Assembly: GCF_002355635.1 (NCBI RefSeq)
Contig: NZ_AP017558.1
Coordinates: 1,178,001-1,242,000, forward strand
Source of the DNA: Halopenitus persicus
Lineage (GTDB): Archaea; Halobacteriota; Halobacteria; Halobacteriales; Haloferacaceae
DNA length: 64,000 nucleotides
Direction of reading: 5' to 3'
Part shown: positions 3,556 through 59,313 of the stretch, piece by piece
How positions within the stretch are numbered: the first letter of the stretch is position 1
Layout of the letters: the number at the start of each line of letters is the position of its first letter
Notes under the pieces: generated by a model
The model's database searches: none
What the model saw: the letters and a program-made list of their open reading frames with translations, nothing else
What the model was told of the DNA's origin: nothing
Position numbers and translations under genes: made by a program

Positions 3556-3680
3556 ACAGCAACGAATCCCAGCAATTGTGTGTCAGTGAACGGCCCAGAA
3601 TTGGATATCGGTTATTCGTATTGGTATTCCACTTAGCATGACCGACACCAATATGCCCCCGGCTCTGTTTCTCGTAGATA

Positions 3681-5708
3681 ATGACTACTGAGGACGTCGA
3701 TCAGAAAGCTCTCGACGTCTTTCCCGGACGCGTCGTCCGGAAGGATCTCGTTCAAGATATCAAATCGGGAGTGAACGTCCCCACCTATGTTCTCGAATAC
3801 CTCATCGGACAATACTGCGCCACTGACGATGAGGAATCGCTTGAGGAGGGACTCGAAAAAGTCAAACAGATTCTGTCGAAGCACTACGTTCGCCCCGACG
3901 AGGCCGAGTACGTCAAAAGCGAAGTGCGCGAGCGAGGGCGATACCGAGTCATCGACAAAGTAACCGTCAGACTCGACGAGCAGCAGGACGCCTACATTGG
4001 CTCCTTCGTCAACCTCGGACTCAATGACGTCGAGATCAACGAACATCTCGTCAGTAAGCACCCGAAGCTGTTGGGCGGCGGTGTCTGGGCCATCATTGAC
4101 CTGGAATACCTTCCAGACAACGCGAAAAGCCCCAAGAGCCTGTTCGGTATCGAATCGTTCAAACCGATACAGGTGTCGAACCTTGACCTCGAACAACTGA
4201 AAGACCGTCGACGAGAATTCACGCGCGACGAGTGGCTGAACCTTCTCCTCCAGAGTGTCGGGTATGACCCATCCGCGTTCAGCGACCGGGAGAAACTCCT
4301 CTTCCTGACTCGGTGTCTCCCTCTCGTCGAGTCCAACTACAACTACGTCGAGTTAGGACCCCGGGGAACGGGGAAGAGCTATCTCTACCGTGAAATCAGC
4401 CCCCACTCAATTCTCATCTCCGGTGGAAAAACCACCGTTGCGAAGCTCTTTCTGAACCTCAACACGGGACGCATCGGACTCGTCGGCCGCTGGGACGTTG
4501 TTGCGTTCGACGAGGTTGGTGGACTCCAGTTCAGCGACTCGGAAGCGGTCCAAATGCTGAAAGACTACATGGAGTCCGGAAGCTTCTCACGCGGAACTGA
4601 GGAACTCACAGCCCAGGCTTCGATGGTCTACGTTGGAAACATCGACTTGGATGTCGAAGGCGTCCTCAAGAGCTCTCACCTCTTCGAGCCGTTCCCGGAT
4701 GATATGCAGGACCTCGCCCTCATCGACCGCTTCCACTACTACCTCCCCGGCTGGGAAGTCCCGAAGATGCGCTCCGAGTTCTTCGGCGATCAGTTCGGAT
4801 TCATCGTGGATTACTTGGCCGAGTTCGTCCGCGAGCTCAGGAAAGAATCCTACGGCGATGCGATCAACGAGGAGTTCGCATTTGGAGACCACCTGAACCA
4901 ACGTGACGAAAGGGCCGTCCGGAAGACCGTATCTGGTCTGCTCAAATTACTCCATCCCCACGGTGAATACACGAAAGAAGAGCTCCGCGAATACCTCGAA
5001 TTCGCAATGGAGGGACGTCGCCGCGTCAAAGAACAGTTGAAGCGGATGGGTGGAATGGAGTATCGGGCCGTCGAGTTCTCGTATTTGGACTTAGACACGA
5101 AAGAGGAACTCTACGTTCCAGTTCCCGAGGAGGCCGATGAGGCGCTCATTCCGCCCGGGACACAGCAAGCAGGCACTGTCTACACTATCGGCGAAAGCGA
5201 GGGTCGTCACGCACCGTTCCGCATCGAAACCCAGACACTCCCCGGTTCTGGGAAGACGAACATCTCGGGGACGCCAGGGAAGAAGATGAAAGAGTCGTTC
5301 GAGACTGCGTGTGACTACCTTCAGGCCAATATGCGCGAGCTCCGTCGTGATGAAACCCTTGACGAGTACAACATCAACGTCCAAGTCCTCAATCCGTCTG
5401 ATGCAAACGAGGGTGGCGAGACTAGTGTCGGCTTGCTTGTGGGAATCGTCTCAGGCATTCTCGACCGACCTGTCCGTCCCCAAACTGTCATCTTGGGTGC
5501 TATGAGTTTGATGGGTGAACTGGTTGCAGTAAGCTCATTAGTTGACAAGTTACAATTGGCGGCAGATTCCGGCGCTAAGACTGTATTATTGCCCGCCAAA
5601 AACAAAGAGGATATGGCGAAGATTCCGGACGAGCTTCTTGATCAGCTTCAGCTTGTCTTCTACACAGATCCCCTTGACGCCGCGAGCAAAGCGATTCAGA
5701 TAGACTGA
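3681..5708 (+). CDS. brxL: BrxL, BREX Lon-like AAA+ protein
   Basis: A 675-residue protein with an AAA+ core and a C-terminal Lon-protease-like domain. The P-loop GPRGTGKS is at about residues 227-234 and a Walker B-like AFDEVGG follows about 50 residues later. The Lon-like domain has a serine in GETSVG (about residues 578-582) and a lysine in VDKLQLAA (about 623), the places of the Lon Ser-Lys dyad. BrxL closes BREX type 1 operons and assembles as a DNA-binding ring. It starts 125 bp after pglZ. Codon use turns AT-richer in the last 250 bp. BrxL is what points to type 1 rather than the halophilic type 5 BREX. Confidence 0.93.
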   Translation: MTTEDVDQKALDVFPGRVVRKDLVQDIKSGVNVPTYVLEYLIGQYCATDDEESLEEGLEKVKQILSKHYVRPDEAEYVKSEVRERGRYRVIDKVTVRLDEQQDAYIGSFVNLGLNDVEINEHLVSKHPKLLGGGVWAIIDLEYLPDNAKSPKSLFGIESFKPIQVSNLDLEQLKDRRREFTRDEWLNLLLQSVGYDPSAFSDREKLLFLTRCLPLVESNYNYVELGPRGTGKSYLYREISPHSILISGGKTTVAKLFLNLNTGRIGLVGRWDVVAFDEVGGLQFSDSEAVQMLKDYMESGSFSRGTEELTAQASMVYVGNIDLDVEGVLKSSHLFEPFPDDMQDLALIDRFHYYLPGWEVPKMRSEFFGDQFGFIVDYLAEFVRELRKESYGDAINEEFAFGDHLNQRDERAVRKTVSGLLKLLHPHGEYTKEELREYLEFAMEGRRRVKEQLKRMGGMEYRAVEFSYLDLDTKEELYVPVPEEADEALIPPGTQQAGTVYTIGESEGRHAPFRIETQTLPGSGKTNISGTPGKKMKESFETACDYLQANMRELRRDETLDEYNINVQVLNPSDANEGGETSVGLLVGIVSGILDRPVRPQTVILGAMSLMGELVAVSSLVDKLQLAADSGAKTVLLPAKNKEDMAKIPDELLDQLQLVFYTDPLDAASKAIQID

Positions 5709-20422: not shown

Positions 20423-21730
20423 TCACTCAACGGCGGTCGGCAAGTCGATGTCGAGGCCCTCAGCGACGTCGAGCGCCTCCTCGAAGAAGTCGTCATCGTT
20501 CAGCATCATCTGGGTGACGGCCTTTCGTGTGACGACGTCCTCGACGAATTCGCCGTCCTCCTGGAACAGCTGGAGTGCCATGTCTCTGACCGTCGTCTTG
20601 GTCTCTTCGAGGTCCTCGAAGGTGTCGTGGTCGAGCGCTTGATTGCACCACATACAGACATCCTTGTCACGGGGCGTCTGTCGACGGCACCGGGGGCAGG
20701 TAATCGGCGTGTAGTCCTCCGGGTCCTCCGTTTCGACGTCCTGCCCGTGCATCGATGCGTACTCGCGAGCACGGTCTTCACCATACATCGCGACGTAGTG
20801 AGAGATGGCATCGCTTCCGCGCTGGCGTCCCTGTCGGTCCTCGATGAACGACTCGTTCTTGCCGAGCTTGGCGAGCCATGTCGCGTTCGACTTCCGGAAG
20901 TTCTTCGGCGTGACGGGCTTCTCGAGGTCGATGCGGTCGGCGGCTCGCTTGAAGTAGCGTTGGAAGGTCGTGTAGCTCATCCGCTCGCCGTTCGACTTCA
21001 CCCAGAGGTAGGCATCGTCGTCGCCCGGGCACGGATGATGGTCACCGAGCCAGCGGTTCAGGTACGGCAGCGCGAGAATCATCGTCACCGAGCGCTGGCC
21101 GGTCTTCCCGTCGACCTCGATTTCGACACCGTAGCTGGTGTCCTTCACGTCGCTGACCTTCATCTCATAGAGTTCGCAGTGCGGTCGGAACCCGCCCTCA
21201 AACTGGACGGCAAACAGGGCCTTGTTGCGGGCCGGGTTTGTCCCGTCGTTGATGAGCGGGAGGACGTCCTCTTCCCACTCGAGCATGTCGGCCCGCGATG
21301 GCTTCGGATTGTAGTTGCGCGGCGTATTCGCGGACATCCAGTCGATGGATTCCGGCGGATCGCCCTTCGTTCCACGGCGGAGCGCGTGCTTGCCCATGGC
21401 GCGGATCGCCAGCCGGTAATCACACTTCGTCCGGGGGTTGTCGTACTCCCGATTGACCCAGCGGACGAGTTCCTCAGCGGCCTCGCGTTCCTCGAGTGCG
21501 TCGGTCAAGCCACCGACCTTCTCAGCTACGCGGACGAGGTGCCGGAGGAGTTTCTCGTGCCGATTGTCGCTGTAGTCGTGGAGATCGAACTGATCGGAGA
21601 CCGTGAGCAGCGTTCCAGCGTCGTCGTCGCTGATCGTGTCTCCCGCATATCGCTCATCGTCGTAGAAGTTGGCCCCGCCGCCGGCTCGAATGCGCTCCTT
21701 GAGAACGCGGATGCGTTCGCGCTTCGTCAT
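20423..21730 (-). CDS. Tyrosine recombinase/integrase with C-terminal zinc finger
   Basis: A 435-residue integrase of a mobile element. The N-terminal part (to about 150) is a SAM-like core-binding domain. The catalytic domain shows FEGGFRPHCEL (catalytic Arg near 182), a beta-strand Lys in DGKTGQR, PKNFRKS in the place of the HxxR box, and SHYVAMYG with the likely nucleophile Tyr near 312. Beyond it, CPRC and CMWC form a four-cysteine zinc finger (about 340-360) followed by an acidic helical tail. This domain order is typical of haloarchaeal integrases. It suggests that at least part of this low-GC island came with an integrative element, but no attachment tRNA is visible nearby. Confidence 0.88.
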   Translation of the reverse strand: MTKRERIRVLKERIRAGGGANFYDDERYAGDTISDDDAGTLLTVSDQFDLHDYSDNRHEKLLRHLVRVAEKVGGLTDALEEREAAEELVRWVNREYDNPRTKCDYRLAIRAMGKHALRRGTKGDPPESIDWMSANTPRNYNPKPSRADMLEWEEDVLPLINDGTNPARNKALFAVQFEGGFRPHCELYEMKVSDVKDTSYGVEIEVDGKTGQRSVTMILALPYLNRWLGDHHPCPGDDDAYLWVKSNGERMSYTTFQRYFKRAADRIDLEKPVTPKNFRKSNATWLAKLGKNESFIEDRQGRQRGSDAISHYVAMYGEDRAREYASMHGQDVETEDPEDYTPITCPRCRRQTPRDKDVCMWCNQALDHDTFEDLEETKTTVRDMALQLFQEDGEFVEDVVTRKAVTQMMLNDDDFFEEALDVAEGLDIDLPTAVE

Positions 21731-22814: not shown

Positions 22815-24071
22815 GTGGCAGACGACTACGTGCGTCGGACGGCAATCACCCGCCTCTCGGTAGACGACGAGCAACGCGATCTGCTCGAAGAGACCATCTC
22901 CGAGTGGAAACGGGGCTGTCAAATCGCCACCGACCTCGCGTGGGGGCACTGCAACACCAAGAGCGATGTGCAACCCCTTGCCTACGATCCTGTGCGCGAC
23001 GAGACCGACCTCGGGAGTCAGCACGCAATTCTGGCCACTCACCAAGCCGCACAAGCCATCACTGGCTGTATCGAACGCCGGGCGAAAGACAAGAAGGTCA
23101 GCAAGCCGACGTTCACCGCGCCAACCGTGAAGTACGATACGCGGACGATGACGGTGTTCGATGACGATACCGTGTCCCTCTCTACGACGGAGCGCCGGGT
23201 GCGGTGTCCGCTCGACCTTCCCGATGCCGACGATGGCTACCAGCGACAGTACCTTGACTCGGACGAATGGAGTGTTACCGAAAGCACGCTCACCGCCCGA
23301 GACGGCGAGTTCTTCTTGCATATCGGTTTCCGCCGGTACAAGAACGATACCGAACGGAACACCGCCGAGGACGGAACGGTTCTCGGGGTTGACCTCGGTA
23401 TCGAAAACCTCGCCGTCACCAGCACCGCCTACTTCTTCAGCGGGCGGGAGCTAACCCATCGACTCCGTGAGTTCGAGAAGGTACGCGCCGGGTTGCAACA
23501 GGCCGGAACACGAAGCGCTCATCGAACGCTCGTACAGTCGAGCGGTCGGGAACTTCGCTACGTCCGCGACGTGCTTCACCGAGCATCGAACGCACTGATA
23601 GACGAAGCCCTCCGATACGACTGCGACGTCATCGCGTTCGAGAACCTAACCCACATCCGCGATCGAACCGGTGCGTCGTGGGGTCACAAGTGGGCGTTCC
23701 GAACGCTCTACGAACAGGTCGAGTACAAAGCCGAAGCGGTCGGTATCTCGGTGAAGCAAGTCGGGTCGGCGTACACATCGAAGCGGTGTTGTGAGTGTGG
23801 ATTCACGGCAGACGAGAACCGCCCGTCACGGAACGACTTTCGATGCGTGAAGTGCGGGTCGGAAGCGAACGCGGACTACAACGCGGCGAAGAACATCGGG
23901 ATACGGTATGTCCGTCGAGGCCAACAGTCGTCTGGGCGGACGGGCGACAGTCAGCTCGCCCTCAAGTCCGGAACGGTGAAGCCGAAAGGCGGATTTACCG
24001 CCTACCCCAATGGGTTCGAGGCCGAGTTCACGGACAAGCCCCACCCTCCACGAGCGAACCTCTCAGAGTGA
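22815..24071 (+). CDS. tnpB: TnpB, RNA-guided nuclease of an IS200/IS605-type (IS1341-like) element
   Basis: A 418-residue TnpB from GTG 22815. The split RuvC triad is complete: Asp193 in GVDLGIENLAV, Glu276 in IAFENLTHIR, Asp354 in NADYNAAKNIG. A zinc ribbon (CCECG, then CVKCG) sits between the last two motifs. TnpB cuts DNA next to a short motif, guided by an RNA made from the element's right end. No TnpA transposase gene is nearby, so this is a solo TnpB element that depends on a TnpA elsewhere or is retained for its own cutting. It follows the truncated regulator at 22404 and its right end touches the next membrane-protein gene. Confidence 0.92.
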   Translation: MADDYVRRTAITRLSVDDEQRDLLEETISEWKRGCQIATDLAWGHCNTKSDVQPLAYDPVRDETDLGSQHAILATHQAAQAITGCIERRAKDKKVSKPTFTAPTVKYDTRTMTVFDDDTVSLSTTERRVRCPLDLPDADDGYQRQYLDSDEWSVTESTLTARDGEFFLHIGFRRYKNDTERNTAEDGTVLGVDLGIENLAVTSTAYFFSGRELTHRLREFEKVRAGLQQAGTRSAHRTLVQSSGRELRYVRDVLHRASNALIDEALRYDCDVIAFENLTHIRDRTGASWGHKWAFRTLYEQVEYKAEAVGISVKQVGSAYTSKRCCECGFTADENRPSRNDFRCVKCGSEANADYNAAKNIGIRYVRRGQQSSGRTGDSQLALKSGTVKPKGGFTAYPNGFEAEFTDKPHPPRANLSE

Positions 24072-44929: not shown

Positions 44930-45043
44930 ACTCATCTTACTGGCCGATAATGTCAACATATTTTTAGAAATTATAGGTTATCATAATTAAGGGTAATAAT
45001 TACAATACGCTCCAGTCGCATCTGTACTTCCTCCCATTGGGGG
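44930..45043 (+). promoter_or_regulatory. AT-rich promoter region of the exported protein
   Basis: About 110 bp far richer in A and T than the flanks, with several TATA-like boxes (ATAATTAAGG, GTAATAATTAC). GTAATAATTAC is itself a near-palindrome. Marks the left edge of the islet ending at tRNA-Leu. Confidence 0.45.
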
Positions 45044-45052
45044 ATGATGACA

Positions 45053-46288
45053 ATGGTAGAAAACCAAGAAAGTGAGAGATGGAGATTAATCAATAGACGA
45101 ACGGTGCTACACGGTGCGGCGGCAGGAGCCGGCATCGCCGGAATGTCGGGAGCGGCTACGGCCAGCGGTGGCAATGGCCAGCCCTGTCACAAGGACTTCG
45201 AATGCGACGAGGAGGAGGGAACCTACGTTAAATTCGAGTTCATCGAGGAGGACGGGGACTGTTACTTCGAAGAGGAGACGGAAACCGGTCTGATCACGAT
45301 CACGGACTGGGAGAGCAAAGAGGGAGACGAGTGCGAACCCATCTCCGTCGAGTGGGAGTCGGAGACGCATGACGCCACCAAGGTGATGGCATTCGGCGGT
45401 GACGACTGTGATACCGTCGAGAATCCCGGGGGATCCTATACGTCGGGCCTAGAAAATCCGGGCGGCAACACTGCCGCGATCAGCAACCTCCAGTTCTGTG
45501 TGGTGCCGGTCGAGCAGGAGATCGTCGGAACGATCAACCTGTCGTACGAGGACCTGCCGAAGGACGATCCCCTGCTCGACTGGGACGTCAACGACTGGGT
45601 CGTCGACGTGATCGGCACGTTCAAAGCGGCCGGCAAAGAGGACGACGGAACGCCTCTGGTTACGGAGTTCACGTTCGACATCGTGCCACAGGCGCGTGGC
45701 GCAGGCGACGACCACGAATGGCACATCCTCCTGCCGAGTAGTGTCCTGTGTGGATCCGGGTCGTACGACCTGACGGTGAAAGACAGCGATGGAAACGAGA
45801 TCGGTTCGAAAAGCGACAGTAGCTCCTTCGGCGGCGACTCGGACGTGGACATCACTGTCTTCCCGAGCACCGAAGCCGTCTTTGACGATCTTGAGAACGC
45901 CGAGTTACCCGAGGATCACGACGACGACTGTACGGACCCACGCGAGTGGGCGACGCTTACGGTCACCTTCGACGATCCGTGTGCGATAGACGTTTCCGAG
46001 GATGAGAGCGATGTCGAGGTGAACGGTGACAACCTCTTCTTCGATCCCTACCTGAACAACCTCGAAAGCCCCACCGAGGTACACCGCGGCGACGTTCGGT
46101 TAGTCGTCGTTCCCGACGACTGGCAGTGGCCGCTCGGCGCGGTTCAGATCTGGGATGCATACACCGACGTCGACGAGGGAGGTGACGGCGAACCGGAGTA
46201 CACCACGTCGGACTGGTACGAGACGGTGGCCGACTCCAATCTCGTCGCGACCTGCGACTTCGATCCGAACGATCTCGACGGGTCGTGA
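45053..46288 (+). CDS. Tat-exported acidic protein of unknown function
   Basis: About 411 residues from ATG 45053 (ATG 45044 adds three). A Tat signal lies at about residues 16-38: NRRTVLHG, a hydrophobic Ala/Gly stretch, and a likely cut after TASG. No lipobox cysteine, so it is released or bound by other means. The mature protein is very acidic, with at least ten cysteines, some in DDC and DEC contexts, and strand-rich throughout (LTVKDSDGNEIGSKS; TLTVTFDDPC), as in beta-sandwich surface proteins. I do not recognise a family. Base composition is below the neighbourhood. It is alone between an AT-rich promoter and the tRNA-Leu relic array, so it was probably acquired. Confidence 0.75.
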   Translation: MVENQESERWRLINRRTVLHGAAAGAGIAGMSGAATASGGNGQPCHKDFECDEEEGTYVKFEFIEEDGDCYFEEETETGLITITDWESKEGDECEPISVEWESETHDATKVMAFGGDDCDTVENPGGSYTSGLENPGGNTAAISNLQFCVVPVEQEIVGTINLSYEDLPKDDPLLDWDVNDWVVDVIGTFKAAGKEDDGTPLVTEFTFDIVPQARGAGDDHEWHILLPSSVLCGSGSYDLTVKDSDGNEIGSKSDSSSFGGDSDVDITVFPSTEAVFDDLENAELPEDHDDDCTDPREWATLTVTFDDPCAIDVSEDESDVEVNGDNLFFDPYLNNLESPTEVHRGDVRLVVVPDDWQWPLGAVQIWDAYTDVDEGGDGEPEYTTSDWYETVADSNLVATCDFDPNDLDGS

Positions 46289-46291
46289 ATC

Positions 46292-46314
46292 GCTTCGGGG
46301 TCAAGCCCCGGGGC
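46292..46314 (+). terminator. Stem-loop just after the exported protein; terminator or element end
   Basis: GCTTCGGGG and CCCCGGGGC can form a 9-bp stem (two G-U pairs) with a 5-nt loop, 4 bp after the stop. It is followed by GCCTGTAAAACAC, which resembles the end of TnpB-type elements seen in a similar block near 22187. Either a transcription end or an IS remnant. Confidence 0.35.
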
Positions 46315-46426
46315 ATTCGCCTTGACCGCCTGTAAAACACCCCGGATCGGCTCGTCCCAGTTTTTCGTGACGTACCGAAGCAGAGCCTCTCACAACCACT
46401 ACGCACCCTGTCTGATACTCAGATGG

Positions 46427-46511
46427 ATTTTTGCGAGGGAAGAACGCTCCGAGAGCGCCCTTCCGCATCACGGGGAGTAACCCCAGCGATGCGAGGGGAG
46501 GGATTTGAACC
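46427..46511. repeat. 85-bp direct repeat, copy 1, containing a tRNA-Leu 3' end
   Basis: Identical to 46787-46871, exactly 360 bp apart. The last 22 bases match the 3' part (acceptor and T-arm) of the tRNA-Leu gene. After base 46511 the tRNA match breaks off, and a hairpin with an inverted copy of the T-arm follows (to about 46556). Confidence 0.95.
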
Positions 46512-46582
46512 ACGGTCGCGCCGAAGGCGCTCCCTGATTCAAACCCTCCCTCGTTGTGCATTCACGCGCTGTGGCGCGTTCA

Positions 46583-46611
46583 TGCGAGGGGAGGGATTTG
46601 AACCCACGGAC
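46583..46611 (-). pseudogene. tRNA-Leu 3' fragment
   Basis: The 3' acceptor, T-arm and start of the variable arm of the tRNA-Leu below, identical for about 28 bases. The remainder of this copy appears about 80 bp further on (46689-46730), as if split by an insertion. Confidence 0.8.
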
Positions 46612-46688
46612 CACCGCCAGACGATCCGGTTCGCTTCGCTCACCGGCTGCGACTGGCGTGTTCTCGTTCACTCGCGGTGCTCGTTCAC

Positions 46689-46730
46689 GAGACCTCTACA
46701 GGAGCGGATCGTGAGCCCGCCACCGTTTCA
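46689..46730 (-). pseudogene. Degenerate tRNA-Leu anticodon/variable-arm fragment
   Basis: GACCTCTACAGGAGCGGATC is shared with the intact gene, then a diverged anticodon arm with the anticodon changed (CGTGAG in place of CTTGAG on the plus strand). With 46583-46611 it makes most of one broken tRNA-Leu copy. Confidence 0.75.
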
Positions 46731-46786
46731 CCGTTTACCGTTCCGGTCCGACGAACAAACCGGTCGCTCACGCGTTCAGTCAGTGA

Positions 46787-46871
46787 ATTTTTGCGAGGGA
46801 AGAACGCTCCGAGAGCGCCCTTCCGCATCACGGGGAGTAACCCCAGCGATGCGAGGGGAGGGATTTGAACC
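46787..46871. repeat. 85-bp direct repeat, copy 2, entering the intact tRNA-Leu
   Basis: Second copy of 46427-46511. Its right part is the functional 3' end of the tRNA-Leu gene, so the first copy is the derived one. Confidence 0.95.
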
Positions 46872-46933
46872 CACGGACCTCTACAGGAGCGGATCTTGAG
46901 TCCGCCGCCGTTTCCCGGCTTGGCTACCCTCGC
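46850..46933 (-). tRNA. tRNA-Leu, anticodon CAA
   Basis: On the minus strand GCGAGGG pairs with CCCTCGC as the acceptor stem, discriminator A at 46850. The D-arm, a 5-bp anticodon stem GCGGA/TCCGC with loop CTCAAGA (anticodon CAA), the long variable arm expected of leucine tRNA and a T-arm with GTTCAAAT are all present. No intron. A CTTAAAC box about 30 bp upstream (46964-46969) is a fitting promoter. CCA is not encoded. Confidence 0.95.
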
Positions 46934-47034
46934 ACGCATCTCGGGCTGACGCCCTCGTCCGGGTTTAAGGCTCCGATTCCGGATCGGTGCTCGGCTCCCG
47001 TAGCGTTTAGGCCGCCACGTTCCCATCGATCGGT

Positions 47035-47520
47035 ATGGACGACCACACCCGGGATCCGGGCGTCGCGCCGCCGCTGGGAAACCCGACCGGGTGGCGCCGC
47101 GGCGACCGGGTCTGGGAGCATGCGACGCTCCGCCGGGCGACCGAACACGGGGTGCGGCTGTTCAACGCGGGCGCGTACCACGAGTCCCACGACTGTTTCG
47201 AGGACGAGTGGTTCAACTACGGGTCCGGGTCGACCGAGTCGGCGTACCTCCACGGAATGGTCCAGGTCGCGGCCGGGGCGCACAAGCGGGCCGACTTCGG
47301 AAATGATGACGGGATGCGGTCGCTCTTCGAAACGGCGCTGACGTACCTTCACGGCGTCCCCGAGGACTTCTACGGGGTGGACGTCGCGGACGTGCGCGTC
47401 ACGATCCGGGCCGCCCTCGAGGACCCGACGACGATCGACGACTGGCGGATCACGATCGACGACGCCCGTCCCGACGCGTATCCGGCGGACTACGAGTACG
47501 TGGACGACCTCGAGGGGTGA
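47035..47520 (+). CDS. DUF309 protein
   Basis: A 161-residue helical protein. The DUF309 signature is visible: [22 protein letters not shown] (in pieces [18 protein letters not shown]), then [17 protein letters not shown], with conserved His and Glu residues that may bind a metal. The function of the family is unknown. Starts at ATG 47035, 100 bp after tRNA-Leu and divergent from it; the gap after it holds a 16-bp repeat. Confidence 0.88.
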
Positions 47521-47543
47521 CTGCTGCCGTCCCCGAACCGAGG

Positions 47544-47590
47544 CCGAACGATCCCTGGACCGAACGATCCCTGGACCGAACGATCCCCGG
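47544..47590. repeat. 16-bp tandem repeat, about three copies
   Basis: Unit CCGAACGATCCCTGGA between DUF309 and the aspartoacylase-like gene; third copy diverged. Confidence 0.9.
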
Positions 47591-47629
47591 ATCCGATCCC
47601 CACTTATTCGCCGGACCGATAGGGACGGT

Positions 47630-48433
47630 ATGCGCGTCGTCGAACTCGGAGACGGTCGCCCCGAGATCGCGGTTGTCGCGGCGATCCACGGGGACGAGCC
47701 CTGTGGTCCCCGTGCGGTCGAACGGCTCCTCGCGGACGAGGAGGAGTACGAGCGGCCGGTCAAGCTGATCGTCGCCAACGAGGAGGCACTCGCGGCCGGC
47801 GAGCGCTACCTCGATACGGACCTCAATCGGGCCTTTCCCGGCGATCCCGACGCCGACACCCACGAGGGACGGCTCGCCCATCGGCTCACCTCGGAGCTGA
47901 CCGGGTGCACCACCCTCGCGCTGCACTCGACGCAGTCGTACGCCGAACCCTTCGCAGTCATCGACACGATGGACGAACTCGCCCGCGGCGTCGCCCCCCA
48001 CCTTCCGGTGGAGGTGGTCGTCCAGACCGACGCGTTCACCGAAGGGCGGCTCATCGAGCACCCCCACACGATCGAAGTCGAGTGCGGCCTCCAGGGCTCC
48101 GAGGAGGCGGCCGACAACGCCTACTGGCTCGTGCGCGCGTTTCTCGCCGCGACCGGCGCGCTGCCGGCGCCGGGAGCCGACGGCGTCGTCGACGCCGGCG
48201 GCCGCGACGACGTCGACGTCTTTCGGCTCGCCGACCGGATCCCCAAGCCTCCCGCCAGCGACTACGAGGTGTTCGCGCACAACTTCCAACGCGTCGACGC
48301 CGGCGAACGCTTCGCGGCCGCCGACGGGGAGTCGATCGTCGCGGAGGAGCCCTTTTATCCGGTCCTGCTGTCGGCGTACGGCTACGAACGCGAGTTCGGC
48401 TACGCCGCCGAGTACGTGGACACCTTCGGCTAG
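47630..48433 (+). CDS. Aspartoacylase/succinylglutamate desuccinylase-family zinc hydrolase
   Basis: A 267-residue M14-like zinc amidohydrolase. AAIHGDEPCGPRAV (about 17-30) has the zinc His and Glu; VANEEAL and DTDLNRAFPGDP (about 65-78) include the substrate Asn-Arg pair; TTLALHSTQSYAEPFAV has the third zinc His; HTIEVECG supplies the catalytic Glu (near 145). Relatives deacylate N-acyl amino acids. The exact substrate in haloarchaea is unknown. TATA-like CTTATTC lies about 28 bp before ATG 47630. Confidence 0.87.
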   Translation: MRVVELGDGRPEIAVVAAIHGDEPCGPRAVERLLADEEEYERPVKLIVANEEALAAGERYLDTDLNRAFPGDPDADTHEGRLAHRLTSELTGCTTLALHSTQSYAEPFAVIDTMDELARGVAPHLPVEVVVQTDAFTEGRLIEHPHTIEVECGLQGSEEAADNAYWLVRAFLAATGALPAPGADGVVDAGGRDDVDVFRLADRIPKPPASDYEVFAHNFQRVDAGERFAAADGESIVAEEPFYPVLLSAYGYEREFGYAAEYVDTFG

Positions 48434-55244: not shown

Positions 55245-56128
55245 TCCTCGTCACCCTCGAAGAGGTCCTCGGGATCGCGCGGCTCCGCCGTTTCGCCCTC
55301 CAGCGCCGGCGGATCCCCGGTCCGAAGCCACGCGCTCCCGAAGATGCCGGATTTCGGTTCCACGCCCTCGAGGTGGGCGTCACAGTGAGGACACCGCGGG
55401 CGACCGAGGAGTCCGATCTGCACGGTGGTCTCACACGACTCACAGCGGGCCGCCGTGACGCCCTCCCGGTTCGCCGCCGCGAGCAGGTCCGTGAGGACCT
55501 CCCGGCGGGCGCGCTCCCGTTCGAGCCGATCGAGACGGCGCTGGACGTTCACGAACGCGCCCGCGAGCCGGGTGAGCTTCTCGTCGTGGTCGGCCAGCCG
55601 GTCGTCGCGATCAGCTGCGTCCGCCCGGAGCGTCTCGACCGAACCGATCCCGCGTTCGAGTGAGTCGTACCGGCTCGACAGGTCCGTGACCGTCGATCGG
55701 AGCGCGTCGATCCGGTCGTCGATTGCGGGGTGGGTGTGGTCCTTCGGCGCCCGCGATTCGGCCTCCTCGAGCACGCTGATGACGCGGTCGCGGACGTCGG
55801 CGATCTGCTCGTCGAGGTCCGCACGGAGCGTCTCGACGTCGCTCTCGAGCCGGTCGACCGTCGAGCGCGTTCGATCGAGGTCCGCCCGAACGCGCTCGAG
55901 CATCTCGGCGTCGGGGACGTCGATCCCGCGCTCCTCGGCGAGCCGCGCGATGGCTCTGGCGAGCAGTTCCTCCCGACGGTCCTCGGGAAGGTCCGACAGC
56001 TCAGTCGGCCGGTCCGTAGCCTCCGGCCCGTCCTCGTTCCCCCTGGACGGCTCCGGTCGGTCGTCTCCCCCCGTGGATGGCTCCCCCCGACCCTCCTCCG
56101 GAAGCGTCATCCGATCGCGATCACCCAT
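55241..56128 (-). CDS. Coiled-coil protein with C-terminal zinc ribbon
   Basis: A 295-residue protein. An acidic disordered N-terminus is followed by RREELLARAIARLAEERGI and about 130 residues of heptad-rich helix (RVRADLDRTRSTVDRLESDV and onward), then a zinc ribbon: ARCESCETTVQIGLLGRPRCPHCDAHLEG (Cys pairs ESC and PHC). No membrane segment. The layout suggests an oligomer that presents zinc fingers. It is coupled to the 54705 gene by ATGA. No family name recognised. Confidence 0.78.
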   Translation of the reverse strand: MGDRDRMTLPEEGRGEPSTGGDDRPEPSRGNEDGPEATDRPTELSDLPEDRREELLARAIARLAEERGIDVPDAEMLERVRADLDRTRSTVDRLESDVETLRADLDEQIADVRDRVISVLEEAESRAPKDHTHPAIDDRIDALRSTVTDLSSRYDSLERGIGSVETLRADAADRDDRLADHDEKLTRLAGAFVNVQRRLDRLERERARREVLTDLLAAANREGVTAARCESCETTVQIGLLGRPRCPHCDAHLEGVEPKSGIFGSAWLRTGDPPALEGETAEPRDPEDLFEGDEE

Positions 56129-56242
56129 CTACGCCCGTTTCAGCGCCCATACATAAGTAAGCTTGCGCGCCGTTCGTGTCGGAGTCGTCCGATCCCGACC
56201 GAAGCCGACGAGTTTTACCCGGGACGGAGCCTCCCGTCGCGT

Positions 56243-56893
56243 ATGCGCTCGGTTTCGCGACGACTCGGTGGTGTGACGTTGATCGGCGTCGGGGGCCTCC
56301 TCGCGTTCGCGGCGCTCGTGCTCGCCGCGGCCGAACTGCCCGCGAGCGTGGCGACGGTCGGTCCGGAATCGGCGATCACCATCGGCGCCGCGAACGGCGG
56401 TGACGGTGCATTCGGCGGCCACTCGGCGCTGCACCCGGTCGCCTACGCCGCGGGAGCGACGCTTCTCGTGGCCGGAACGGCCGCGGTTCGCAACCGACCG
56501 GTCGACTCGAAGGCAGCGATCGCGGTCCCCGCGGTGGGTCTCGCGCTCGCGCTCGTGGGCGTGGCGCTCGGATCGGGCACCATCGCCGGATCGGGGGGGA
56601 CTGCCGGATCGGGAGCCGCAGCTGGGTTCGGGACCGGTCTCGAGTCGGGGATCGTCCTCGCGCCGGGGGACGTCCTCGCGATCGCGGGGACCGCCGTGGG
56701 AACCGCCCTCGCGCCCGTCGTCGTCGGCGCGCTTCGCGAACACACGATCGTCCTCCTGGCGGGGTTCGTGGTCGCGCTCGTCGCCGTCGCCGCGGCACCG
56801 AACCCGGGTCTCGTCGCCGCCGTCGGGCTCGGGGGCGGGGGCGGCGCCATCGCCGCCGCCTGGTGGCTCGACCCCGATGGCTGGCGGCCGTGA
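56243..56893 (+). CDS. Integral membrane protein, unknown function
   Basis: A 216-residue protein from ATG 56243 with hydrophobic helices at about 10-30, 62-80, 90-107, 133-158 and 165-205. Gly/Ala-rich loops (AGSGGTAGSGAAAGFG). It resembles haloarchaeal DUF-type small membrane proteins; no motif points to function. It is divergent from the coiled-coil gene and lies 114 bp from it. Confidence 0.72.
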   Translation: MRSVSRRLGGVTLIGVGGLLAFAALVLAAAELPASVATVGPESAITIGAANGGDGAFGGHSALHPVAYAAGATLLVAGTAAVRNRPVDSKAAIAVPAVGLALALVGVALGSGTIAGSGGTAGSGAAAGFGTGLESGIVLAPGDVLAIAGTAVGTALAPVVVGALREHTIVLLAGFVVALVAVAAAPNPGLVAAVGLGGGGGAIAAAWWLDPDGWRP

Positions 56894-57013
56894 CGACGCC
56901 CGCCGCGGCGGTTGACCGCTCCGTGATCCGGTCGGCAGCCTCGGAGTTCGGTCGATCGTTCCGGAATCCGGCCGACGCGACACCCCTATCCGTTTCGGAC
57001 GCGAACCGCGGGT

Positions 57014-57274
57014 ATGGCGACCGAGGCGTGTGCGGTCTGTGACACCGACGTGCGGATCGCCGGCGGGATCGGCGACCTCTGGAGCTTCGCCTTCGAGTCG
57101 ACCCAGGGGATGACCCTCGAGCTCGTCGACGGCTCCGAGTTCTTCCTGTGTTTCGACTGCATGGAGCGACTGCCCGGGGACACGGAACCGACTGCGGCGG
57201 ACGTCGAGCGGCTGCAAGCCGAAGACGACGAAACGGCGGTCGAAGAGCCGGCTGACGGCTCGCCGCTCGAGTAG
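57014..57274 (+). CDS. Small zinc-finger-like protein, 86 residues
   Basis: Starts with EACAVCDTDV and has FFLCFDCMERL at about 43-53: two CxxC pairs around 38 residues apart, a probable zinc site. Tail acidic. Conserved haloarchaeal small protein type (DUF7561-like, from memory only). It precedes the helicase gene by 71 bp on the same strand. Confidence 0.7.
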   Translation: MATEACAVCDTDVRIAGGIGDLWSFAFESTQGMTLELVDGSEFFLCFDCMERLPGDTEPTAADVERLQAEDDETAVEEPADGSPLE

Positions 57275-57345
57275 CGCCGGTCGGGGACCGAGGCCGTCAC
57301 CGTCCCATCCGACACCTTTACTCCGATCGCAACGGACCCCGGAGT

Positions 57346-59313
57346 GTGGACCCCGACCGGATCCTCGCGGAGTTCCCGGCGCCGAGCTTCCGCGGCGCCC
57401 AGGAGCAGGCCCTGCACGACGTCCGTGACGCGTTCGCGGCCGGCAACGACGTGGTGCTCGTGCGCGCGCCGACCGGCAGCGGCAAGTCCCTGCTGGCGCG
57501 GTCGATCATGGGTGCCGCCCGCACCGTCGACGCGGCCGAGCCGCGGGAGGCGACCGGCGCGTACTACACGACGCCGCAGGTCTCCCAGCTCGAGGACGTC
57601 GCGGCCGACGAGCTCCTGGCGGACCTGAACGTGATCCGCGGGAAGTCGAACTACGCCTGCATCCTCCCCGGCGAGCACGACACGCCGGTCGACCGCGCAC
57701 CCTGCGCTCGCCAACGCGGGTTCGACTGCAGCATTCAACACCGGTGTCCGTACTTTTCCGACCGGGCGATCGCCTCCTCGCGACGCTTCGCCGCGATGAC
57801 GCTCGCCTACTTCATGCAGACCGCCGGGTCGGAGGTGTTCGGGAAGCGGGACGTGGTCGTGATCGACGAGGCCCACGGGCTGGCCGAGTGGGCCGAGATG
57901 TACGCGACGATAGAGCTCTCCCCGGACCGCGTGCCCGTCTGGGAGGACGTCGGCATTCCCGACGTCTCCGGCGGGGCGGACGAACGATCGGGCGACGGCG
58001 CCCACGATGACGACGGACCCCTTGACCGCACCGCCCGGTTCGTCGAACAGCTCCGTGGCGCCTGCGAGCGCGCGAAGGACGAGCTGGTCGGCCGTCCGGA
58101 ACTGGAGCCCGCGGAGGTCGCCCGCCGCGACCGGCTGCAGGAGCTGATCGGCGAGCTCGGCTGGTTCCTCGAGGACTACCGTGACCCGCAGAGCCCGACC
58201 ACCTGGGTCGTCGACCAGCCCGGCGGCGAGGGCACGGCGATCACGATCAAGCCGCTCGATCCGGCACGGTACCTCAAGCACACCGTCTGGGACCGGGGGA
58301 ACCGATTCGCGCTGCTGTCGGCGACGATCCTCTCGAAGGAGGCGTTCTGTCGCGGCGTCGGACTCGATCCGGCCGACGTCGCGCTCGTCGACGTCGAGCA
58401 CACCTTCCCGCTCGCGAACCGGCCGCTGTACGACGTGGCGCAGGGGAAAATGACCTACGAGCACCGCGAGAAAACGATCCCCCGGATCGCCGAGCTGGTC
58501 GTCCGGCTGATGGCTCGCCATCCCGACGAGAAGGGACTGATCCACGCCCACTCGTACGCGATCGCCGACCAGCTCGTGGAACGGCTCGGCGAGCTCGGCG
58601 TCGCGCCCCGGCTGCGCCGGCACACGAAGGCGACCCGGGACGACGAGCTCGAGGCCTGGCTGGGGAGCGACGACCCGGAGGTATTCGTCGCGGTGAAGAT
58701 GGAGGAGGCGCTCGACCTCAAGGGCGAGCTGTGTCGCTGGCAGGTGATCTGCAAGGCCCCGTACCTGAACACGAACGACTCCCGCGTCGCGCGCCGGCTC
58801 GAGGAGGGCCAGTGGTCGTGGTACCACCGCGCCGCGCTGCGAACGGTCATCCAAGCGTGCGGACGCGTCGTCCGCGCACCCGACGACCACGGCGCGACCT
58901 ACCTGGCTGACGACTCGCTGCGCGACCTCTTCGACCGGGCGCGGGCCGATATGCCCGCGTGGTTCGCCGACCAGGTCGCGGCGATGGAGACCCCCGAGCT
59001 TCCGGCGGCCGACCCCGCGGCGGCGCTGTCCGGGATCGACGCGACGCCATCCCCGACCGCGACTGCCGGCGGGACGGCGGTCGACGCCGCCACGAAAACC
59101 GCGGCCGCAAGCGACGACGCGACGACGAACGACGTCGCGGGGGACGGGAGCACGGGGTGGGCGTCGACGAACCGGGACACGGGGACCGGAACCGCAGGTG
59201 GCGGCGCAAGCGGCACCTCGACCGGCGGCGGAGGCGGAACCGAAACGCGGACCGAGCGCGACGCGAAGCGCCGCAAGGATCACCCGCTCTCCGACGTCTG
59301 GGGCGACGGGTAG
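57346..59313 (+). CDS. XPD/DinG-type Fe-S DNA helicase
   Basis: A 655-residue SF2 helicase from GTG 57346. Walker A RAPTGSGKSLL (about 39-49), motif Ia YYTTPQVSQLEDV, four cysteines for a 4Fe-4S cluster (SNYACIL, APCARQ, FDCSIQ, HRCPYF, about residues 104-136), DEAH box VVVIDEAHGLAEW (about 172-184), and a late motif QACGRVVRAPDDHG (about 504-517). Such 5'-3' helicases act in repair and unwinding of forked DNA. The C-terminal 110 residues are Ala/Thr/Gly-rich low complexity, not found in the core family. A small Zn-finger gene precedes it. Confidence 0.9.
   Translation: MDPDRILAEFPAPSFRGAQEQALHDVRDAFAAGNDVVLVRAPTGSGKSLLARSIMGAARTVDAAEPREATGAYYTTPQVSQLEDVAADELLADLNVIRGKSNYACILPGEHDTPVDRAPCARQRGFDCSIQHRCPYFSDRAIASSRRFAAMTLAYFMQTAGSEVFGKRDVVVIDEAHGLAEWAEMYATIELSPDRVPVWEDVGIPDVSGGADERSGDGAHDDDGPLDRTARFVEQLRGACERAKDELVGRPELEPAEVARRDRLQELIGELGWFLEDYRDPQSPTTWVVDQPGGEGTAITIKPLDPARYLKHTVWDRGNRFALLSATILSKEAFCRGVGLDPADVALVDVEHTFPLANRPLYDVAQGKMTYEHREKTIPRIAELVVRLMARHPDEKGLIHAHSYAIADQLVERLGELGVAPRLRRHTKATRDDELEAWLGSDDPEVFVAVKMEEALDLKGELCRWQVICKAPYLNTNDSRVARRLEEGQWSWYHRAALRTVIQACGRVVRAPDDHGATYLADDSLRDLFDRARADMPAWFADQVAAMETPELPAADPAAALSGIDATPSPTATAGGTAVDAATKTAAASDDATTNDVAGDGSTGWASTNRDTGTGTAGGGASGTSTGGGGGTETRTERDAKRRKDHPLSDVWGDG

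Follow-up and report, generated by a model that had tools for sequence, protein, structure and literature searches.

The array of tRNA pieces that lies behind the tRNA-Leu(CAA) gene of the window (the whole 64-kb stretch of DNA analysed) is, with a probability of about 0.5, a local case of a family of non-coding hairpin repeats that extends throughout the Halobacteria. These repeats are restricted to the 3' flanks of tRNA genes, are probably mobile or recombination-borne, multiply in tandem, and are kept matched to their host tRNAs. In four surveyed genomes, between a quarter and a half of the tRNA genes are followed by such a repeat, and 114/116 sampled genomes of the class contain the family.

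Array behind tRNA-Leu(CAA)

The tRNA-Leu(CAA) gene (46848-46934, minus strand; ARAGORN, and Rfam RF00005 with 50.8 bits) is intact and is the sole tRNA gene of the window. Downstream on the tRNA strand corresponds to lower window coordinates, and all the pieces of the array lie there, also on the minus strand. The echoed segment, A, comprises the last ~22-31 nt of the tRNA from the T-loop to the discriminator. Its exact 22-mer end (TGCGAGGGGAGGGATTTGAACC) has three sites in the window, 46490, 46583 and 46850, and no further one.

The tRNA end runs into a double-hairpin trailer (copy 1, 46784-46853), which folds with -38.0 kcal/mol (z -5.7) on the tRNA strand and with -29.1 kcal/mol in antisense. 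In its first hairpin the tRNA end CGCATC is paired with GATGCG downstream, and the second hairpin, GGAAGGGCGCTC-TCG-GAGCGTTCTTCC, closes once more in CCCTCGCA. The trailer is followed by a decayed echo of the tRNA body from the D-arm side to the variable region (46691-46736, 87% identity to 46876-46921), in which the anticodon loop is CTCACGA compared with CTCAAGA in the intact gene. A core hairpin of the repeat family (GCCAGTCGCAGCCGG...CCGGATCGTCTGGC, 46606-46690) sits between this body echo and its T-arm copy; it was matched by R1, the covariance model of repeat type X described below, with an E value of 2e-7 (G000:C1:1224606-1224667, window 46606-46667; G000 is the window's genome). Next come the second echo of the tRNA 3' end (46582-46612), whose 31 nt are 100% identical to 46849-46879, and a hairpin unit (46490-46581) with relatives in several other genera. 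This unit is composed, in order, of a small GC hairpin, an inverted T-arm (~46535-46553), a short core stem and the third echo of the tRNA 3' end (46490-46512), and its fold reaches -52.9 kcal/mol (z -7.0) on the tRNA strand and -46.6 kcal/mol in antisense. The stack is completed by copy 2 of the double-hairpin trailer (46424-46493), which has an identical fold. Both trailer copies belong to an 88-bp direct repeat (46424-46511 and 46784-46871; 99% identical), and the 360 bp separating the direct copies consist of non-coding hairpins.

Most of this anatomy had been noticed in a preliminary description made from the sequence alone. The block repeated 360 bp apart, the third T-arm/acceptor copy and the inverted T-arm hairpin near 46490-46556 are all present, and the block additionally contains the conserved double hairpin. 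The tRNA body with a mutated anticodon was also recognized correctly, but the gap of ~80 bp that was said to separate it from its T-arm copy is occupied by the copy of the repeat core.

Two other repeats were seen in the window. A palindromic stretch with GGGGCTTGACCCCG at 46289-46336, directly after the stop codon of the ORF 45044-46288, looks from its sequence like the end of an IS605/PATE-type element; its close relative is a 56-bp, IS605-like insertion behind tRNA-Asp in the congener G001, which is unrelated to the units. The 16-mer CCGAACGATCCCTGGA is repeated three times in tandem at 47544-47591, inside or beside a coding region.

Same tRNA in related genomes

All 60 related genomes searched contain a match to tRNA-Leu(CAA), and the best 30 of the 60 gave loci for comparison. 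The double hairpin was found behind the tRNA in 29 of the 30 genomes examined, as judged by inspection of an alignment that units of differing type share, and in some genomes it comes after a hairpin unit. In the relatives, a TGCG farther downstream is the pairing partner of the tRNA end CGCA and the second hairpin again ends in CCCTCGCA, while the loop stems differ completely among genera. Some genera have an extra unit with an inverted T-arm interposed at this tRNA, and four near-identical units are arranged in tandem behind it in G016 (L021). G003 and G030, from a second genus, also have the decayed tRNA body and its insert, and G006, from a third genus, has part of them; the core stem in G003 shows a compensated change (GCGAG/CTCGC vs GCCAG/CTGGC). 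Two congeners of the window's genome are without the extra pieces. Since relatives in other genera carry its pieces, the array is not a mark left by a recent element in a single strain. Thus, the comparison with relatives that the preliminary description had proposed as a check on its integrase reading went against that reading, as the same kinds of pieces recur in two other genera.

Hairpin units at other tRNA genes

An echo of the gene's own 3' end in the first 200 bp downstream was seen for 62 of 171 tRNA genes from four Halobacteria genomes (14/47, 10/40, 17/41 and 21/43 dispersed tRNAs per genome). The upstream control gave 1, 2, 0 and 0 such echoes, the end of another tRNA was found downstream in no case in these genomes, and in two genomes of other classes only 1/26 tRNAs showed an own-end echo. 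In the window's genome, tRNAs for Arg, Gly, Lys, Ala, Ser, Glu, Asp and Leu echo 12-30 nt of their own 3' ends 49-115 bp downstream, with a hairpin in between.

On the tRNA strand, a unit consists of a small trailer hairpin, a segment A', a core hairpin B-loop-B', and then A. A reproduces ~22 nt of the host tRNA, from its T-loop through its 3' end, and resembles a duplication of the target. A' is the T-loop together with some of the T-stem in reverse complement, and it matches in part each tRNA's own T-stem. The units are ~70-130 bp long, with a non-coding insert of ~50-110 bp. Type X has the form GGATTTGAACC-CTGGAAGTCGCAG...CGTCTTCCTCC-GGTTCAAATCC followed by the acceptor strand of the host tRNA, and its shorter variant GGATTTGAATCAGGGAGC...GCGACCGTGGTTCAAATCC is the form in the window. 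Type Y begins in the T-stem, copies the acceptor strand alone, and may nest inside an X copy. The order A - loop - A' - hairpin - A is common to three otherwise different element types, and a long core consensus is common to many isoacceptors and many genera. The outer box is GTTCRA in every aligned copy, within the T-loop sequence GGTTCRAATCC. Tandem copies and nested second elements were also seen.

Other arrangements at tRNA genes were noted during this survey. About a dozen or more tRNA genes are clustered in ~2.5 kb in three haloarchaeal genomes (G000:C1:1152765-1154999, which is 23 kb left of the window, G001:C16 ~55753-58049 and G038:C1 ~2635124-2637763), and this cluster was likened to the tRNA arrays of tailed viruses. 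In Halosimplex salinum (L190, ~3600-3840), a tRNA-Thr is apparently interrupted near the anticodon by a sequence resembling an IS605-type end, after which its 3' part and an X unit are intact.

Distribution and linkage to tRNA genes

The 22-base 3' arm of X gave 51 exact stretches in a species-level genome collection, all of them in Halobacteria, and the X core had no match in a viral contig collection. Among the collected loci, 39 of 57 pattern matches are continued by the 3' end of the immediately preceding tRNA when up to two mismatches are allowed. When R1 was applied, 114/116 Halobacteria genomes contained 1-36 matches each; G007 and G045 are genomes with none. In a sample of 197 genomes of the phylum, the 31 that were matched all belong to the same order or are closer still, and the 164 genomes beyond that group gave no match.

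Linkage to tRNA genes was examined in three genomes. Of 64 R1 matches there, 59 follow a tRNA at a distance of no more than 700 bp (~0.7 expected), and 56 of these 59 are on the tRNA strand. One of the five unlinked matches adjoins a tRNA-Leu that the tRNA scan had missed, and two are parted from their tRNAs by insertions of 3.6 and 8.5 kb that start at the tRNA itself. These insertions (L304 and L305 in G059) are at tRNA-Arg(TCG) and tRNA-Phe and carry 13- and 22-nt copies of the tRNA end. Because they lie between the tRNA and an older unit, the units are not element ends, and the order of the sequences indicates that the units predate the inserted elements.

Hairpin structure and strand preference

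Fifty X units were compared on a 28-pair hairpin. The paired cells amounted to 86.1% compared with 77.9 in shuffled sets, 18 pairs were changed on both sides compared with 10.3, and 120 cells were double-sided compared with 43.6 (0/500 shuffles in each case); these figures are not probabilities, because the sequences share ancestry and in part a search pattern. The outer helix, read on the tRNA strand, contains 65 G·T against 11 A·C (odds ratio 5.6), a model-independent asymmetry that a hairpin on the opposite strand would invert. In addition, the apical loops are GNA in 58 units and TNC in 5, and tandem GA was counted 71 times against a single tandem TC. Based on these observations, we suggest that the selected molecule is most likely the tRNA-sense strand, whether as RNA or as single-stranded DNA.

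Match to the host tRNA and differences between congeners

The 9 nt beyond the part modelled by R1 correspond perfectly to the host tRNA in 21 of the 27 matches with a readable tRNA, including odd T-loops such as GGTTCGATTCTCG of tRNA-His, and the same 9 nt typically show 4-7 mismatches to other tRNAs. This agreement means that the A copy has been regenerated or converted, or is recent. Such copies can also decay, as those behind Lys(CTT) and Arg(TCT) have done by drift in G001.

The units differ between G000 and G001. Behind tRNA-Leu(TAG), exactly one 121-bp unit is present in G000 and missing in G001, and at Gly(TCC) and Ala(GGC) the units are either different or absent. The alignments of G000 with G001 gave no clean pair of empty and filled sites with a ~22-nt target duplication; they gave differences in unit number instead. 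Behind tRNA-Ser(CGA) in G000 (L083) there are ~5 tandem 22-bp repeats (ATTCCCTCGAGCGACCGTCGGCC), and fewer in G001.

Origin and possible role of the units

Under the reading that we prefer, a unit would spread at the tRNA end by recombination or transposition, and the tRNA would be left whole since the ~22-nt target end is duplicated, as with larger tRNA-targeting elements. Copy number would then shift via recombination between direct copies, units may swap cores by way of the T-loop boxes that flank them, and A would be kept like the host tRNA by re-duplication or gene conversion. At the window locus, the tRNA may have been duplicated together with its trailer, and this duplication would have decayed into the present stack. 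Several observations are at odds with a mobile repeat. A' is partly fitted to a specific tRNA, which is unlike a generic insert, and very few copies lie away from tRNAs, which is unusual for such a repeat. The decayed A copies in one congener speak against it as well, and the analysis turned up no enzyme for the units, nor any autonomous relative in the surroundings of the R1 matches.

The strand preference and the conservation are equally compatible with a function as RNA, and the main rival is that the units act as a pre-tRNA trailer. The hairpins would work as RNA in the nascent transcript, in 3'-end maturation, termination or protection, and the second T-arm/acceptor copy would sequester A' and so prevent it from invading the real T-arm. 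The position of the linked matches on the tRNA strand, the tolerance of G·T but not A·C, the GNA loops and tandem GA, the stronger sense folds and the retention of the Leu(CAA) double hairpin argue for this possibility, which accounts for strand and conservation better than a mobile repeat does. However, at least half of the tRNAs in each genome are without an echo, congeners differ at the same tRNA, and GNA triloops are best known for their stability in DNA. An RNA role also leaves the host match of A unexplained because the hairpin leaves the acceptor portion of A unpaired. We regard such a role as possible but doubtful. We think it unlikely that the units arose passively, by replication template switching at the near-palindromic T-loop that yields A-A'-A, with gene conversion keeping the copies alike and neither a dedicated enzyme nor a function. 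Although the shared order in three element types, the partial fit of A' to each tRNA's own T-stem and the varying unit number between congeners are consistent with such an origin, the long core consensus across isoacceptors and genera needs copying between loci, the units are restricted to one class whereas the T-loop is universal, and both the asymmetry between strands and the compensatory changes imply that the structure is under selection.

The preliminary description saw in the array several rounds of integration and excision or tandem duplication at an integrase target site. Tandem duplication is the closest of these options, as duplication at the tRNA 3' end is evident and the unit is a class-wide repeat family at many tRNAs, whereas integrase-borne elements found no support. 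It is true that tRNA 3' ends are the usual attachment sites of archaeal integrases and are regenerated at integration (PMC8371274), that haloarchaeal prophages leave 22- and 43-nt tRNA copies according to a Haloquadratum study (PMC3119063), and that here the 3' part of the tRNA is duplicated downstream of an intact gene. Nevertheless, no integrase or element genes lie between or beside the copies, and a genome-wide search with the tRNA end gave no distant copy, the end being found in G000 only in this stack, other tRNA-Leu genes aside. The short units with a core common to many isoacceptors, the real elements sitting between a tRNA and a pre-existing unit, and the absence of the X core from the viral contig collection also argue against scars of viruses or plasmids, which we consider very improbable, and an integrase-borne element at tRNA-Leu(CAA) was rejected. 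The window's single integrase, a Phage_integrase-family protein of 434 aa (20423-21730, minus strand), lies 25 kb from the tRNA; an IS605-type TnpB follows 1 kb on (22815-24071, plus strand), and the two are possibly part of one element that is not linked to the array.

As a tentative extension, haloarchaea may have a dedicated tRNA-tail system, in which strand-specific hairpin cassettes are installed behind almost any tRNA and reproduce both its T-arm and its acceptor strand. Such cassettes would work either on the transcript of the tRNA or on tRNA-sense DNA in single-stranded form, and a putative class-wide enzyme would serve them. If the units are mobile, their enzyme can regenerate its target at any tRNA, and if instead they work as RNA, the maturation of haloarchaeal tRNAs includes a layer not described before. 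The family bears on the evolution of tRNA 3' flanks and on how integrating elements meet a favoured target, and in automated annotation such copies resemble tRNA fragments or prophage scars. In one survey, prokaryotic tRNA fragments were ascribed to phage integration, CRISPR and annotation errors (PMC9897764).

Comparison with known systems

An earlier description of a tRNA-tail hairpin family was not found in the open-licence literature searched. A curated Rfam RNA family does not apply either, as the tRNA alone passed in a scan of 45000-48000, with microRNA matches far under threshold. Archaeal tyrosine-recombinase elements (SNJ2-type, Haloquadratum prophages) resemble the units in targeting the tRNA 3' end, duplicating 13-43 nt and leaving the tRNA whole. 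The units differ from them in their short non-coding insert, the common core at many isoacceptors, the lack of an adjacent integrase, tandem multiplication and class-wide occurrence.

Besides prophage-linked tRNA copies, the available part of the Haloquadratum study describes SMR, PATE and MITE repeats, some of 52 to ~110 bp, and does not present them as tRNA-bound (PMC3119063). Like the units, these haloarchaeal repeats are ~50-110 bp in size, palindromic, transposase-free, present in many copies and nested. That source reports no target duplication for SMRs and PATEs and gives IS605/PATE palindromes as the main targets of SMR-As (PMC3119063). This definition of SMR or PATE does not cover the units, which are tied to tRNA genes and terminate with a host-tRNA copy. 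The units share with MITEs that they are short, non-coding and present in many copies (1-36 R1 matches per genome in 114/116 genomes).

The integron attC site is also an imperfect palindrome with paired outer and inner boxes and a spacer, favours one strand, and is arranged in tandem between direct copies; an imperfect palindrome with covarying arms was indeed found in the units in the 28-pair structure. In the units, however, the outer box is the T-loop sequence and no gene is carried. The consensus of the attC R box is GTTRRRY, which differs from the invariant outer box of the units, and membership in this class was dropped. Among the matches listed in the window's genome, only general Phage_integrase ones appear. 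REP/BIME repeats are dispersed, palindromic, non-coding sequences of several tens of bases that occur in clusters. The units are likewise dispersed, palindromic, non-coding and clustered, but they differ from REP/BIME in that they stand almost always behind tRNA genes and are matched to the neighbouring tRNA.
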